64,000 bases of DNA from Kutzneria chonburiensis. Its GTDB lineage: Bacteria; Actinomycetota; Actinomycetes; Mycobacteriales; Pseudonocardiaceae. The notes under the pieces were generated by a model. The model ran no database searches. It saw only the letters and a program-made list of their open reading frames with translations, and was not told where the DNA came from. Made by a program: the position numbers and the translations under genes. Of this stretch, positions 25,035 to 30,079 are shown piece after piece. Each line of letters starts with the position of its first letter. The stretch's first letter is position 1. The stretch is from contig NZ_CP097263.1 in the NCBI RefSeq assembly GCF_028622115.1, forward strand, positions 7,874,001 to 7,938,000. Direction: 5' to 3'.

Positions 25035-27683
25035 CTAGTTGCTGGCGCCGAGGCAGATGAAGGGGCGGCGCAAGGGATCTACGGCGGTGGCGTCGGCCAA
25101 GGCGACGGCGGGGCGGGCGCCCTCGGCGACGCGGCGGTGGTAGAAGGCCATGCTCTCGGCGGCGGTCTGGTCGCCGACGCGGGAGACGGCGGCGGTGACG
25201 GTGCGGACGCCGGTGGCCAACAAAGCGCCGGCGAAGCCGAGGGCCTCGTCGCCGGGGCGGATGCGGGTCATGGCGAGCTCGCAGGCGGCGAGGACGACCT
25301 GCTCGGGTGGGCGCTGGAGACGAGCGGTCTCGTGGGCGAAAAGGCCGCCGTCGACCAGGTCCAGACGGGAGAAGAGGGCGTTGCCGGGCTCATGCATGCC
25401 ATGGGCGGCGATGTGCGCCAGCTGGGCGCCGTCGAGGGCCTCCAACACGGTCTCGACGGTGGCACGAGGACCCTCGAGCACCTGGGCACCGGGCAGATAA
25501 CGGGTGAGCTGGGCGACCTCACCGACGGCGGCGGGGAGGTCGGGGCCGCCGACCAGAACGGAACGGCCGGTGCCGGGGAGTTGCTGGTCGGCGGAAGCGG
25601 CGAGCCAAGCGGTGGCGGACGGGGCGACGACGACGGGCCGACCACGCAAGGAAGGCAAAGCGCCCCAAGCGATGGGGTAGAGGGGACCGGTCGGCACGAC
25701 GACGAGCTCCCGGTCACCGATGATCGAGGACAACGGCCGCAACAGCTGGTCGTCGAGGAACTGGGCCCGGCGCCGGGCGGAGGCGGAGACGACCTCGACC
25801 AAAGCGGACGGCAGGTGGTCGGGGGCCAGAGCGTCGAGGTCGGCGTGCAGCATCTTGGCGGCCTGCCGGGCATCGGCGACGCTGCCGAGACGGACCAGGC
25901 GCGGCCGGCCGTCGACGATGACGACGGCGACCAAGGTGTCGTCGACGGCGGCGAAGCTGATCATGGCACGGTCTTCGAGGCGCTTGCCGACCTCGGCCAG
26001 GTCGGCGACGGGGCGCGGCCGGCCCCACACGGTGGTCTGCCAGCCGAGCCGGGTGACCTCCTGCTGCAAAGCGGCGTGCCGGGCGGCCATTTCCCGCACC
26101 CGCCGTCCCTCGGCCTTGGCCAGCTGCATGGCCCGGGTCAGACCCCGGATCTCGGTGATCCGGTCGGCCAGCTCGGGATCGTCGATCGAGGGCTGCGGCT
26201 CGTAGCGGTACACCTGGGCCCGGGTCCGCTCCAACCAGTCGAACAGCCGGCGCGCGTCGGCGGTGGATCGGTTGCCGTCCAAGACGAGCCGAACGGCCAG
26301 CACGCCGAGCTCCCGCCCGTGCACGGCGGTGCCGCTCACCAGCTCCAACCCACCCATCCGGTCACGGGTCCGCCCGAGCTCGGTGAAACCGGCCCGGGCC
26401 TGGCTGAACGCGGTCCGACGGTCCCCGGTGGCCACGGCGACCTCGGCCCGGGCCAACCGGCGCAGCATCCGGTGGTCGATGGACGTGAAGCGGCGCGGCG
26501 CGGGCACCTCGGACAGCAGCCGGGCGGCGTCGGACACCTCGCCACGGCGCAGCTGGAGACGCACGGCGAGCAGCTTGGCCACCGCGGACTCGTCGGTCTG
26601 GGCCACCCCGCTGAGACCCTCGGACAGCTCCAAAGCCTGACGTACCAACGCCTTTGACGGCTTGCGAGGAGCCCTCATGGCCGCGCCGGCGGCGGCGTGC
26701 AGCCCGGTCAACGACGCCAGCCAGGCCATGGCCGGCCGTTCCTGACGCAGGTAGCGCCGCCGGGCCAACTGGGCGAAGGACCGCGCGGTGGCGAAGTCGC
26801 CCTCCATCACGGCCGCGGCGGCCCGCAACGTCTCGGCTTCGGCAAGGTCGCGGTTGCCGCCCTGCTCACGCAGGCTGCCGAAGGACTCGTCCAGCGCGTT
26901 GGCGGCCTCCTCGGCCAGCCCGGCATACAGCAGCACCTGTGCCCGATCGGACCGCACCTTCGGCACGGCGGTCGGCGCGACGCGCGACATCAGCCGTTCG
27001 GCTTCCTCGTAGTACCGCAGTGCCGTCGGGGCGTCGCCCATGCGGTAGTGCATCTCGCCGAGGTTGTTGGTGGTGATGGCCAACGTCAGCGGCGAGTGAT
27101 AGGTGTGCCCGAGCCAGAGGCAGCGGCGCAGGTCGACCCCGGCCGAGAGCGGGTTGCCCATGGCGCTGTTGACCAGGGCACGGGCGGTCAGCGCGCTGAT
27201 CAATCCGTTCTCAACGGGCGCGCCGGAGGCCAACGCCTTGTCCGTGGCGACGACGGCCTTGTCCAGCACGACAAGGGCTTCGGGCAGCCGACCGGCGCGC
27301 CACAGCAGGTTGCCGCGCTGCCGCTCGATCAGGCCCTCCAGCGTCATCCGCTGGGTCCCGGCCGGCATCGACGACACCAGCCGGCCGGCCTGTTGCAGCG
27401 ACGGCATGCCCTCGCGCAGCCCGTACGCCTCGGCGTCGGTGTGCGCGAGCGAGCTGAGCACCCGGACCCGCAGCCGCTGTTGTTCCTGGTCGGCGGCCGG
27501 CACCCGGTCCAGCAGCTTCAGCGCCCGGCGGAGCAGCCGGGACGCCTCGGCGTACTGCTGGGACAGCGCGGTGCGGTGCGCGCCGGCATGCAGTTTGGCC
27601 GCCCGGTCCAACACGGCCGCCGCGGCGCGTGGGCGCGCGGCAGCGGCAGTGGACGACGGAGGCACTTGTACATACCAGCACAC
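25035..27683 (-). CDS. TPR-CHAT protease-like protein
   Basis: 882 residues from GTG 27683 (GTG 27665 also possible). The N-terminal 550 residues are helical TPR-like repeats (LSQQYAEASRLLRRALKLLDR, RAGRLPEALVVLDKAV, RYYEEAERLM). The C-terminal CHAT domain is a caspase-like cysteine protease with the expected dyad His761 (HIAAHGMHE) and Cys801 (LAACELAM) and the closing GFAGALLATGVRTVTAAVSRV. No signal or membrane segment. It is the last gene after the sigma factor and beta-sandwich genes, so it is likely the effector of that cassette. The target is unknown; the GGIPHAE-repeat protein encoded upstream is a candidate. Confidence 0.85.
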   Translation of the reverse strand: MCWYVQVPPSSTAAAARPRAAAAVLDRAAKLHAGAHRTALSQQYAEASRLLRRALKLLDRVPAADQEQQRLRVRVLSSLAHTDAEAYGLREGMPSLQQAGRLVSSMPAGTQRMTLEGLIERQRGNLLWRAGRLPEALVVLDKAVVATDKALASGAPVENGLISALTARALVNSAMGNPLSAGVDLRRCLWLGHTYHSPLTLAITTNNLGEMHYRMGDAPTALRYYEEAERLMSRVAPTAVPKVRSDRAQVLLYAGLAEEAANALDESFGSLREQGGNRDLAEAETLRAAAAVMEGDFATARSFAQLARRRYLRQERPAMAWLASLTGLHAAAGAAMRAPRKPSKALVRQALELSEGLSGVAQTDESAVAKLLAVRLQLRRGEVSDAARLLSEVPAPRRFTSIDHRMLRRLARAEVAVATGDRRTAFSQARAGFTELGRTRDRMGGLELVSGTAVHGRELGVLAVRLVLDGNRSTADARRLFDWLERTRAQVYRYEPQPSIDDPELADRITEIRGLTRAMQLAKAEGRRVREMAARHAALQQEVTRLGWQTTVWGRPRPVADLAEVGKRLEDRAMISFAAVDDTLVAVVIVDGRPRLVRLGSVADARQAAKMLHADLDALAPDHLPSALVEVVSASARRRAQFLDDQLLRPLSSIIGDRELVVVPTGPLYPIAWGALPSLRGRPVVVAPSATAWLAASADQQLPGTGRSVLVGGPDLPAAVGEVAQLTRYLPGAQVLEGPRATVETVLEALDGAQLAHIAAHGMHEPGNALFSRLDLVDGGLFAHETARLQRPPEQVVLAACELAMTRIRPGDEALGFAGALLATGVRTVTAAVSRVGDQTAAESMAFYHRRVAEGARPAVALADATAVDPLRRPFICLGASN

Positions 27684-27729: not shown

Positions 27730-28230
27730 CTACAGCATCAGTGTCGGCGTCACGATCGTCCGCGGCCTGGAACCGGTCCCGTTGTTCAGGTGCACCACCA
27801 GCTGCGTGGTGCCCTTGGGCACGTCGTCCACCGCGAACCGGCCGCCCTCGTCGGCCTCGGCGGTGGTGGACGAATGCCCGGCCACCCGGACCTCGACGGT
27901 GTGCGGCCCCCCGGGTACCAGCCAGCCGTCGAACCGGTACCCGGCACCGGCCGGAGCGAAGCTGACCATGATGGTCAGGTCTTCCACGGTGAAGGTCACG
28001 GTGTTCGGGCCGGCGCCCCGGACGCCGGCCAGCTCCTCGGCGCGCTCCCAGCGCGCGACCTCGACGTCGAGGTCCTCCAACGCGATCGCGAACTGCACGC
28101 GTTCGACCAGGTCGGCCGGCACCGGGTCGACCTTGTCGAACAGCACGTCGAGCTCGGCCAGCAGGAGCAGGTCCTGCTCGGTGAGGTTGTCCATGTCCAC
28201 GCCGTCGAACTCGTTCCGGTCGTTGCTCAT
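27730..28230 (-). CDS. Beta-sandwich protein (carboxypeptidase-regulatory-like)
   Basis: 166 residues. The first 65 are helical and acidic with a regular Leu/Val pattern (EQDLLLLAELDVLFDKVDPVPADLVERVQFAIALEDL). The rest looks like a transthyretin-type beta sandwich (VPGGPHTVEVRVAG, ADEGGRFAVDDVPKGTTQLVVHL). ATG 28230 overlaps the sigma-factor stop by 4 bp, so it is made together with it; it may hold the sigma factor (anti-sigma-like) or bridge to CHAT. This is inference from position only. Confidence 0.65.
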   Translation of the reverse strand: MSNDRNEFDGVDMDNLTEQDLLLLAELDVLFDKVDPVPADLVERVQFAIALEDLDVEVARWERAEELAGVRGAGPNTVTFTVEDLTIMVSFAPAGAGYRFDGWLVPGGPHTVEVRVAGHSSTTAEADEGGRFAVDDVPKGTTQLVVHLNNGTGSRPRTIVTPTLML

Positions 28231-28841
28231 CGCGGGCCCCCTTCCGCGTCGAGGAGCTCGCGCAGCGACGTCAGACAGCGGCCGCGGGTCGGGCCGATGC
28301 TGCCGCGGGGCATCTCCAGCGCCTCCGCGACCGCGTCGTACTGGGCCCGGCCGGACAGCACGGTCAGCGTCAGCAGTTTCTGGCAGCGGTCGGTGAGCTG
28401 CTTGAACGCGGCCCACAGCCGTCGGTCCCGGTCGTCCCGCAGCGCGTGCTGCTCGGGCCCGTCCACCTGGGCCGGAATGTCGACCAGGTCCTCGGCCGCC
28501 ACCGGCGTCTCCCGGTCGAAGCCGGTCGTCTTGGCCCGCTGCGCCTCGCGCCGGGCCGTCACGATCAGCCACGCGGCCAGCGCCTTGGGCTGTTGCAGCC
28601 GGTCGAGGTGGCGCAGCAGGGCCAGCCAGACGGTCTGCACGACGTCCTCCGCGTGCACCTTGTCCAGCCCCTGGCTGCGGGTGACGTGCCAGACCAGCGG
28701 CGTGAGGTCGGCGACCAGCACGTCGAGCGCCTTGCGGTTGCCGCCTCTGGCCGCCACCAGACACGCCGCGTGTCGGTCGTGACCGGTCAGCCCCTCCCAC
28801 GGGTCGTGGCCGGTCAGCCCGTCCCACGTGTCAACGGCCAT
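28227..28841 (-). CDS. Sigma-70 family (ECF-like) RNA polymerase sigma factor
   Basis: 204 residues. Region 2 spans LVADLTPLVWHVTRSQGL...AEDVVQTVWLALLRHLDRL...ALAAWLIVTARREAQR. Region 4 is QKLLTLTVLSGRAQYDAVAEALEMPRGSIGPTRGRCLTSLREL. Two tandem WxGLTGHD units form the N-terminus, an unusual feature. Start ATG 28841 has GGAGG 8 nt upstream. It probably drives its own cassette, but no matching promoter pair was established. Confidence 0.9.
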   Translation of the reverse strand: MAVDTWDGLTGHDPWEGLTGHDRHAACLVAARGGNRKALDVLVADLTPLVWHVTRSQGLDKVHAEDVVQTVWLALLRHLDRLQQPKALAAWLIVTARREAQRAKTTGFDRETPVAAEDLVDIPAQVDGPEQHALRDDRDRRLWAAFKQLTDRCQKLLTLTVLSGRAQYDAVAEALEMPRGSIGPTRGRCLTSLRELLDAEGGPR

Positions 28842-29150
28842 TCGATGCACCTCCGGGTCTGAGGTACGTCGGCGCGCCCCGGTCCCCCCACCACGGGGAC
28901 GCACCCCGTGCCTGCATCCTGCCCTACCCGGTGTAGTTCTCCACACCCAGATGGGCCAATCGTGCTCGATGACGGCCACGCCCCCCGGCGTGTTTCCGTG
29001 TGCTGCCACCGCCGCCCCATTCACTCGAGCGGGAACCCCCGGACGGGTCCCGACACAAGGAGGAGCAGCGAACTCGCAGTCAGATACTCACGAATTGGTA
29101 ACGACGTATTCGCGCTGGTGGCGAGGGCTGCCCGCCACCAGCGCCGGCCC
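28842..29150 (-). other. Gap between repeat-protein gene and sigma-factor gene
   Basis: No gene is supported on either strand. At 29112-29144 a perfect 12-bp stem with a 9-nt loop lies 6 bp after the repeat-protein stop and is a good terminator for it. The remaining 270 bp probably hold a separate sigma-factor promoter and leader. The long plus-strand ORF here has reversed-repeat composition and is rejected. Confidence 0.6.
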
Positions 29151-29483
29151 TCACGGGCGGACGACCTCGGCGTGCGGGATGCCGCCGTTGGGGTGCGCGA
29201 CGCCGCCGCCCGCCTTGGTGGTCTCGGCGTGCGGAATGCCGCCGTTGGGGTGCGCGACGCCGCCCTGCGGCTTGGTCTCCGCGTGCGGGATGCCGCCGTC
29301 CGGGTCGCCGCCGTCGGCCAGCGCGACCGCCCCGGCCGGCTTGGTCTCGGCGTGCGGGATGCCGCCGTCGTCGGTGGTCTCGCCGCCGTTCCGCCCGGCG
29401 GTCAGGGCCTGCTCGACCTCGTCGACCGTGATGGGGTCGAGAGCGTCCGGAGTGCTGGTCGACTTGTCGTCCAAGGTGCTCAT
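29151..29483 (-). CDS. Small protein with four GGIPHAE repeats
   Basis: 110 residues, not recognised. A leader-like N-terminus (MSTLDDKSTSTPDALDPITVDEVEQALTAG, acidic and helical) precedes four copies of the heptad GGIPHAE. They are spaced 23, 18 and 19 residues apart, with TKP or TTK after the first three and Gly/Ala/Pro-rich linkers (QGGVAHPN, AGGGVAHPN). No cysteine, signal or membrane segment. ATG 29483 has a GAGGGG ribosome site. The leader-plus-repeats layout resembles a multi-core precursor peptide or a protease substrate. It lies directly upstream of the sigma/beta-sandwich/CHAT genes on the same strand. Confidence 0.7.
   Translation of the reverse strand: MSTLDDKSTSTPDALDPITVDEVEQALTAGRNGGETTDDGGIPHAETKPAGAVALADGGDPDGGIPHAETKPQGGVAHPNGGIPHAETTKAGGGVAHPNGGIPHAEVVRP
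29171..29370. repeat. Imperfect tandem repeat encoding GGIPHAE units
   Basis: The unit CGTGCGG(g/a)ATGCCGCCG (plus strand) begins at 29171, 29228, 29282 and 29351, that is at 57, 54 and 69 bp steps, all multiples of three. Differences between copies are mostly silent or in the linker. Confidence 0.85.
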
Positions 29484-29660
29484 GGATCGTCCCCTCTGGT
29501 GTTCCCCGGTGACGCCGCCGCGCCGTGTCCCCCGTGCGACCGCGTCCTGTCGTGGAGCAACACGGTGGCCCGGCCCCTCCCGGTTCACCATGCGTGCTCA
29601 TTGTGCCGCCGAGTCGCCTCGAACAGCGCAACGATTTAACAAGGGATCGCACGAACGGAC

Positions 29661-29688
29661 TAGATACACACCACGGTGTGATCAACAA
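29661..29688 (-). promoter_or_regulatory. Promoter with internal palindrome for the GGIPHAE-repeat gene
   Basis: On the minus strand, TTGTTG (-35), 16-nt spacer and TATCTA (-10). The spacer contains a perfect palindrome CACACC-GT-GGTGTG (29667-29680), a good place for a repressor. The leader to ATG 29483 would be about 170 nt. Confidence 0.45.
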
Positions 29689-30079
29689 GGCAGACGAGCG
29701 TCGCCCGATGGGCGCGCGAAAGGGCCGGAAGCGACTTGGCGGCCCGGCGTCGGGTCTCCCCGTCCGACGCCGGCGTAGTCGCCTCCGGCCCGTGAACCCT
29801 TCACACCCCCGCTGACGTGAAGGGTCCTTCACGCTGACCGCCGCCCGCCCGCCGACGACCGAACCGATGCCCCCTCGACACCGGGTCGGTCGGCACCCCG
29901 TGGGCCGACGCCTGTCGCGCGTGTACCGACCTGGCGGAACCGCCACCCCCATGGCGGTCCTGCCACCCCCGACCGGCGCCTGTGGGACGCCTGGTCCATC
30001 CGTCCCGTTCCCCATGGCGTGGGTGAACCGGCCGGACATGAGGACAGGAGTGGGTCTTGAGCCGGGAGATACACCGGTT

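Follow-up and report, generated by a model that had tools for sequence, protein, structure and literature searches.

Why would an actinobacterium encode a small protein in which the same heptad, GGIPHAE, occurs four times behind an acidic leader, and what might read these repeats? The gene lies in the window analyzed here, a 64,000-nucleotide stretch of the Kutzneria chonburiensis genome, and a sequence-only reading had offered three explanations for its product, namely, a multi-core RiPP precursor, repeated protease sites or adhesive repeats. The comparative evidence favors the second of these and speaks against the other two.

Translation of the minus strand from 29483 to 29151 gives MSTLDDKSTSTPDALDPITVDEVEQALTAGRNGGETTDDGGIPHAETKPAGAVALADGGDPDGGIPHAETKPQGGVAHPNGGIPHAETTKAGGGVAHPNGGIPHAEVVRP and confirms the four identical heptads. 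At the DNA level, their codons differ at two silent positions, and the spacers between them comprise 16, 11 and 12 amino acids, in line with the earlier statement that linker lengths change in steps of three bases. Among 20,000 shuffled versions of the protein, none contained any 7-mer more than twice, and the GIPHAE codon pattern is matched four times across the whole genome of 10.4 Mb, each time inside this open reading frame, with zero matches for the reversed control pattern. The leader, previously put at about 30 residues, is 33 residues long and indeed acidic, with 7 acidic and 2 basic residues. The protein contains neither Cys nor aromatic residues; its longest hydrophobic run is AGAVALA, and no long hydrophobic stretch that could serve as a signal peptide or anchor was found in it. 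Searches against Pfam, NCBIfam and PADLOC returned no match. The repeat protein is small and hydrophilic and probably disordered.

We then considered the genomic setting (Table 1). On the minus strand, the order from 5' to 3' is the repeat gene, an ECF sigma factor gene, a gene that we call mid, and a gene for a TPR-CHAT protease, so that the CHAT gene does not adjoin the repeat gene, as had been supposed, and is separated from it by the sigma gene and the 166-aa mid gene. The start codon of mid overlaps the stop codon of the sigma gene (ATGA). The Mid protein, for which 49 homologues were aligned, gave a weak match to Pfam CarboxypepD_reg (0.011) and an AlphaFold model with a mean pLDDT of 84, for which Foldseek detected no confident match in the PDB (best E 8e-3; Ig/FnIII/SOD-like sandwiches); without such a match, we refrain from naming it an anti-sigma factor. 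The other neighbors are housekeeping or unrelated genes: by Pfam, ten of them encode MoeA, a protein kinase, GroEL, CutC, GH20, MFS, GGDEF, AAA, VWA and XdhC proteins. Within these ten and the four cluster proteins, Pfam revealed no RiPP-modifying enzyme, in agreement with the sequence-only reading. No exporter was found among the scanned neighbors either, the sole transporter being the MFS protein, encoded separately on the plus strand, and no PADLOC defense model matched any of the four cluster proteins. Separately, the genome from which the window was taken contains a second sigma-mid locus, one without CHAT (G000:C1:418315-418722, the L104 region), as do two sister genomes (L103, L105); these second loci adjoin a gene that, judged by eye, resembles one for an FKBP-type lipoprotein.

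Table 1. Features of the repeat-gene locus in the window.
Feature	Position	Strand	Description or basis
Repeat-protein gene	29151..29483	-	110 aa; acidic leader and four GGIPHAE heptads; translation and orthologues in five other Kutzneria loci
Acidic N-terminal leader with LDPxxxDEVEQAL segment	29385..29483	-	kept in all Kutzneria orthologues; sequence comparison
Heptad 1, GGIPHAE	29346..29366	-	
Heptad 2, GGIPHAE	29277..29297	-	
Heptad 3, GGIPHAE	29223..29243	-	
Heptad 4, GGIPHAE	29166..29186	-	
ECF sigma-70 family factor	28227..28841	-	204 aa; Pfam Sigma70_r2 8.5e-11; TIGR02937 1.6e-20
Mid protein	27730..28230	-	166 aa; N-terminal helical hairpin and Ig/FnIII-like beta domain
TPR-CHAT protease	25035..27683	-	882 aa; Pfam CHAT 4.4e-26, TPR_12 1.7e-9
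GC-rich hairpin without U-tract	29112..29144	-	directly 3' of the repeat-gene stop codon
GTATCT element (TGTATCT)	29662..29667	-	184 bp upstream of the repeat gene; candidate promoter element, common with the sigma gene
GTATCT element	29082..29087	-	246 bp upstream of the sigma gene

By sequence, the protease possesses the His-Cys dyad of an active CHAT peptidase (His761/Cys801), the His being invariant in 59 of 59 and the Cys in 58 of 58 ungapped alignment rows. Its AlphaFold model (mean pLDDT 82) matches separase, Craspase chains and Csx29 (8eey_B, E 3.9e-10). Against the NCBIfam Csx29 model, the protein scores 17.7 bits relative to a cut-off of 300, and we assign it to the TPR-CHAT class, outside the Csx29 family. 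In the structural model, loops of low confidence (762-781 and 801-814) surround the dyad, which would fit an enzyme requiring activation, a requirement shown for Csx29 (PMC10028731), bearing in mind that low pLDDT alone proves nothing. The profile of the TPR region matches peptide-binding TPRs of KLC1 (1.3e-4), PINS/LGN (1.7e-6 for PINS) and RapH (1.4e-4), so that this part of the protease resembles, by sequence, readers of short linear motifs, that is, KLC1, PINS/LGN and the Rap phosphatases. Kinesin light chain reads W-acidic peptides. Motifs with WDP or WEP in several relatives of the repeat protein resemble such peptides; the Kutzneria motif is devoid of Trp.

Among the Kutzneria orthologues, the LDPxxxDEVEQAL leader is kept, and was also picked by a de novo motif finder as the common part of these proteins, while the repeats change together: GIPHAE occurs in four, four and three copies in three of the proteins, and the others carry eight GIPQAE and one GIPQSE, four GIGHAE/GIGHPE, or two GMGHPD. 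Each protein is thus uniform in its own heptad, which differs between species. Of the expectations attached to the sequence-only reading, variation in copy number (2-9) is observed, and conservation of the heptad is not, given its coordinated replacement between species. The outcome named there as adverse, homologues without the heptad or without selection on it, came out mixed, with homologues confined to the genus and the heptad exchanged in a concerted manner. Where proteins of the family have several repeat copies, these often differ silently (pS 0.14-0.74) but seldom in residues, with pN biased downward because the copies were anchored on the motif pattern and degenerate ones were missed.

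A direct homology search of 200 genomes of the family returned convincing matches to the repeat protein only within the genus; weak matches in other genera (E 0.001-0.01) proved to be unrelated open reading frames or wrong frames. The sigma and mid genes are, by comparison, conserved in about half of these genomes, and the slot upstream of sigma is often filled by a protein that has an acidic leader and, in 1-12 copies, a short Gly/Pro motif such as GWDPY, GWEPY, GAWDPN, GVYDPN, GNWDPN, GNWEPN, GNWSPN, GWEGN, GATDPS, GGINDP or GHHQTH, among others. A motif profile built from the other genera and applied to held-out proteins does not detect GGIPHAE of the window (p 0.54; p 0.026 for K. buriramensis), and we therefore do not claim statistical homology with the W/H-type motifs; the grounds for homology between the Kutzneria motif and the others are position, leader and linkage to CHAT.

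We compiled 138 non-redundant sigma-mid loci, of which 77 contain TPR-CHAT and 61 do not. Of the 77 loci with CHAT, 66 have a motif protein (67 when the GATDPS protein of L143 is included), compared with one of the 61 loci without it, a count obtained with a motif regular expression built in part from the CHAT-containing loci. Fisher's test on 66/77 and 1/61 yields a p value of 2e-26, which is a guide only since the loci are related. A motif-free count of exact 5-mer repeats is in agreement (38 of 100 compared with 4 of 77, duplicates between the two sets included), and because the four CHAT-lacking positives in this count contain no recognizable motif protein and look like noise open reading frames, the motif-based count was used as well. 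In a de novo motif search with 30 proteins, the score was 286, compared with 204 +/- 5 in shuffles. On a tree of sigma and Mid, we counted 13 changes in CHAT status, six of them accompanied by a simultaneous change of the motif in the same direction. In Umezawaea, for example, a locus without CHAT (L106) has lost the motif but still carries the leader found in its sisters, L063 and L064. An independent, named set comprising Saccharothrix with and without CHAT, Lentzea and Amycolatopsis repeats the pattern.

The sole CHAT-lacking locus with a motif protein, in Saccharothrix deserti (L176), has a CHAT remnant directly after mid (aa 813-848, 69% identity). Its motif protein is still present but changed (GHHQAH), offering a snapshot of recent CHAT loss. 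Conversely, ten loci with CHAT lack a recognizable motif protein: L086, L093, six from genus g31, and the paralogue pair L096/L097, in which the S8 protease carries PWETSG/PWDTN instead. A subset of the slot proteins ends in a C-terminal domain of about 75 aa; these contain 4-12 repeats beside CHAT (with L086 and L093 as exceptions), compared with none in loci without CHAT, where the domain is present. The same domain forms the C-terminus of a papain-like C1 protease (PF00112, 1.1e-31) encoded upstream of sigma in L081, L083, L087, L091, L131, L132 and similar loci. Two loci filed under Rhodococcus rhodnii NRRL B-16535 (L214, L224) match a Pseudonocardiaceae-like genome (G093) and resemble Kibdelosporangium; this assembly is probably mislabeled.

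Repeats of this kind are also found outside stand-alone proteins. An S8 subtilisin is part of the sigma-mid-CHAT loci of other actinobacterial families, and in many of these enzymes the segment linking prodomain to catalytic domain bears private repeats (three NPYWKVP, seven GYGDGV, three NPFTRT, four NPYHSG, four PYDSSH, four NPYGTRT or four NPFMKT; two PWETSG in the S8 of an Amycolatopsis-family paralogue). Loci in which such an S8 gene lies beside an ECF54-like sigma factor, mid and CHAT are L276-L295, L300-L319, L096 and L097. Repeats are absent from a second type of S8, whose N-terminal region differs, and in L285 and L286, S8 stands beside CHAT yet is devoid of repeats. In L303 (G305), the S8 linker contains three NPFTRS and CHAT was not detected within the 8.5 kb fetched; it may be encoded elsewhere or be too divergent. 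The repeats thus appear in unrelated proteins, mostly staying beside TPR-CHAT, and in S8 they occupy a place where cleavage would be expected to free the enzyme.

The hairpin that follows the repeat gene retains its stem in six Kutzneria species with changed sequence (-33 to -45 kcal/mol; MAFFT, RNAfold) and is a candidate terminator or attenuator separating the repeat gene from the sigma operon; this suggests that the repeat gene is transcribed on its own or that its transcription is attenuated ahead of sigma. Consensus promoters for sigma-70 were looked for, and none were found. Family-wide, TGTATCT lies upstream of 32 of the 66 motif open reading frames, compared with 0.3 expected, and the looser GTATC[TC] upstream of 41 of them; in 105 of the 138 loci, GTATC[TC] also lies in the 420 nt preceding sigma, and ATGTATC occurs in 33 of the 77 loci with CHAT, compared with 0.2 expected. 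The presence of the GTATCT element upstream of both genes suggests that they belong to one regulon. Beyond this element, positions 29500-29700 of the window (minus strand), upstream of the repeat gene, are non-coding and strongly conserved across the aligned Kutzneria loci, reading TTGTTGATCAC..GTATCT..TTAAATCGTTGCGCTGTTCGAGG.., and may hold further regulatory sites.

How do these observations fit known systems? As in type III-E Craspase, the genes for a TPR-CHAT protease, an ECF-type sigma factor and a dedicated partner protein occur together; in the Csx29-Csx30-CASP-sigma system, Csx29 cleaves an inhibitor of the sigma factor (PMC10028731). In contrast to Craspase, gRAMP/Cas7-11 is absent among the scanned neighbors of the Kutzneria locus, and the partner is a repeat protein of 110 aa, whereas Csx30 has 565 residues. 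By genomic context, the sigma factor is ECF54-like, matching the description of ECF54 in a review that reports conserved neighbors with carboxypeptidase-type, subtilase and CHAT domains and a proposed regulation by proteolysis (PMC8999054): here too, an ECF sigma factor is found with a CHAT neighbor, with a neighbor that weakly matches a carboxypeptidase-type domain and, in relatives, with a subtilase, namely, S8. The passage on ECF54 in that review makes no mention of repeat proteins, S8-linker repeats or a link between repeats and CHAT.

Because the partner protein is found almost only beside the CHAT protease and the sigma factor, the repeats are most likely read by the protease. We accordingly regard it as reasonably probable that they are recognition sites, for docking and/or cleavage, of the linked TPR-CHAT in a protease/sigma circuit resembling Csx29-Csx30-CASP-sigma. 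The repeat protein would be a dedicated partner of the protease encoded three genes downstream, its acidic leader serving as a conserved docking segment and its tandem heptads as multivalent sites read by TPR-CHAT. We infer that the protease, once activated, would physically bind or cleave this partner and so affect how active the linked ECF sigma factor is, by analogy with the Csx29 system and possibly via the sigma-coupled Mid protein.

The repeats might instead be pseudosubstrates that are never cut and hold TPR-CHAT inactive, or a feedback product of the sigma regulon that switches it off, a possibility that we consider somewhat doubtful. A common GTATCT element upstream of the repeat and sigma genes would be expected for feedback, multiple copies suit avidity, and the Kutzneria repeat protein has no effector domain. 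Moreover, a dedicated protease inhibitor of the chagasin type (I42, 2.4e-17) is encoded between the C1 protease and sigma in L091, L093, L151, L217 and L241, implying that inhibitors belong to such loci. The repeats of S8, however, sit at the junction of prodomain and catalytic domain, where a role in cleavage or activation is more natural.

Alternatively, the repeat protein could be an adapter, with the leader helix bound to sigma or Mid, the repeats bound to the TPR superhelix, and Mid as the real substrate. Leader and repeats are separate conserved modules, sigma and mid are coupled by the ATGA overlap, and the helical hairpin predicted at the N-terminus of Mid is a candidate sigma-binding part. 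Nonetheless, mid persists in many loci without CHAT, which argues against Mid being an obligate substrate of the protease, and we deem this arrangement unlikely.

That CHAT cuts four core peptides from a leader protein for subsequent export, as in a multi-core RiPP pathway, appears improbable. The resemblance to RiPP precursors, with a leader followed by identical short repeats in variable linkers and a protease in the cluster, is offset by the failure to find an adjoining modifying enzyme or exporter among the scanned neighbors, by the lack of Cys and aromatic residues, by the identity of the conserved partners (besides the protease, a sigma factor and an Ig-like protein), by co-evolution with the protease/sigma locus, and by the occurrence of related repeats inside S8 proteases. 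Finally, low-complexity drift, or structural or adhesive repeats unconnected with the protease, is scarcely credible: GC-rich DNA does favor Gly/Pro/Ala repeats, but the combination of silent variation with uniformity at the protein level, the lack of any anchor-like or signal-peptide-like stretch and, most strongly, the linkage to CHAT all speak against it.

Returning to recognition of the repeats by the protease, we tentatively put forward a broader proposal, which we see as possible rather than probable, that each actinobacterial TPR-CHAT reads a private, lineage-specific, multi-copy peptide 'password' displayed on a stand-alone repeat protein, a repeat protein with a globular domain or an S8 linker, such that these loci would amount to caspase-like cascades that are wired to an ECF sigma factor and whose substrate motif is re-coded rapidly. 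In the open-access literature, we found no description of the repeats or their linkage to CHAT, no CHAT substrate of this kind and nothing on the Kutzneria CHAT protein, and the relevant passages of the conflict-system papers of Kaur et al. (2020, 2021) contain no account of CHAT combined with sigma and repeats.

Although TPR-CHAT proteases occur widely among bacteria, very few have known natural substrates, Csx30 being the best-known example. If the protease reads the repeats, every such locus displays a candidate substrate motif, in many copies and in many lineage-specific versions, and substrate recognition by bacterial relatives of caspases, together with its co-evolution, would become directly testable. 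The repeats in the activation linkers of S8 would, in turn, point to genuine protease cascades operating in multicellular actinobacteria, with an ECF sigma factor as the coupling to transcription.
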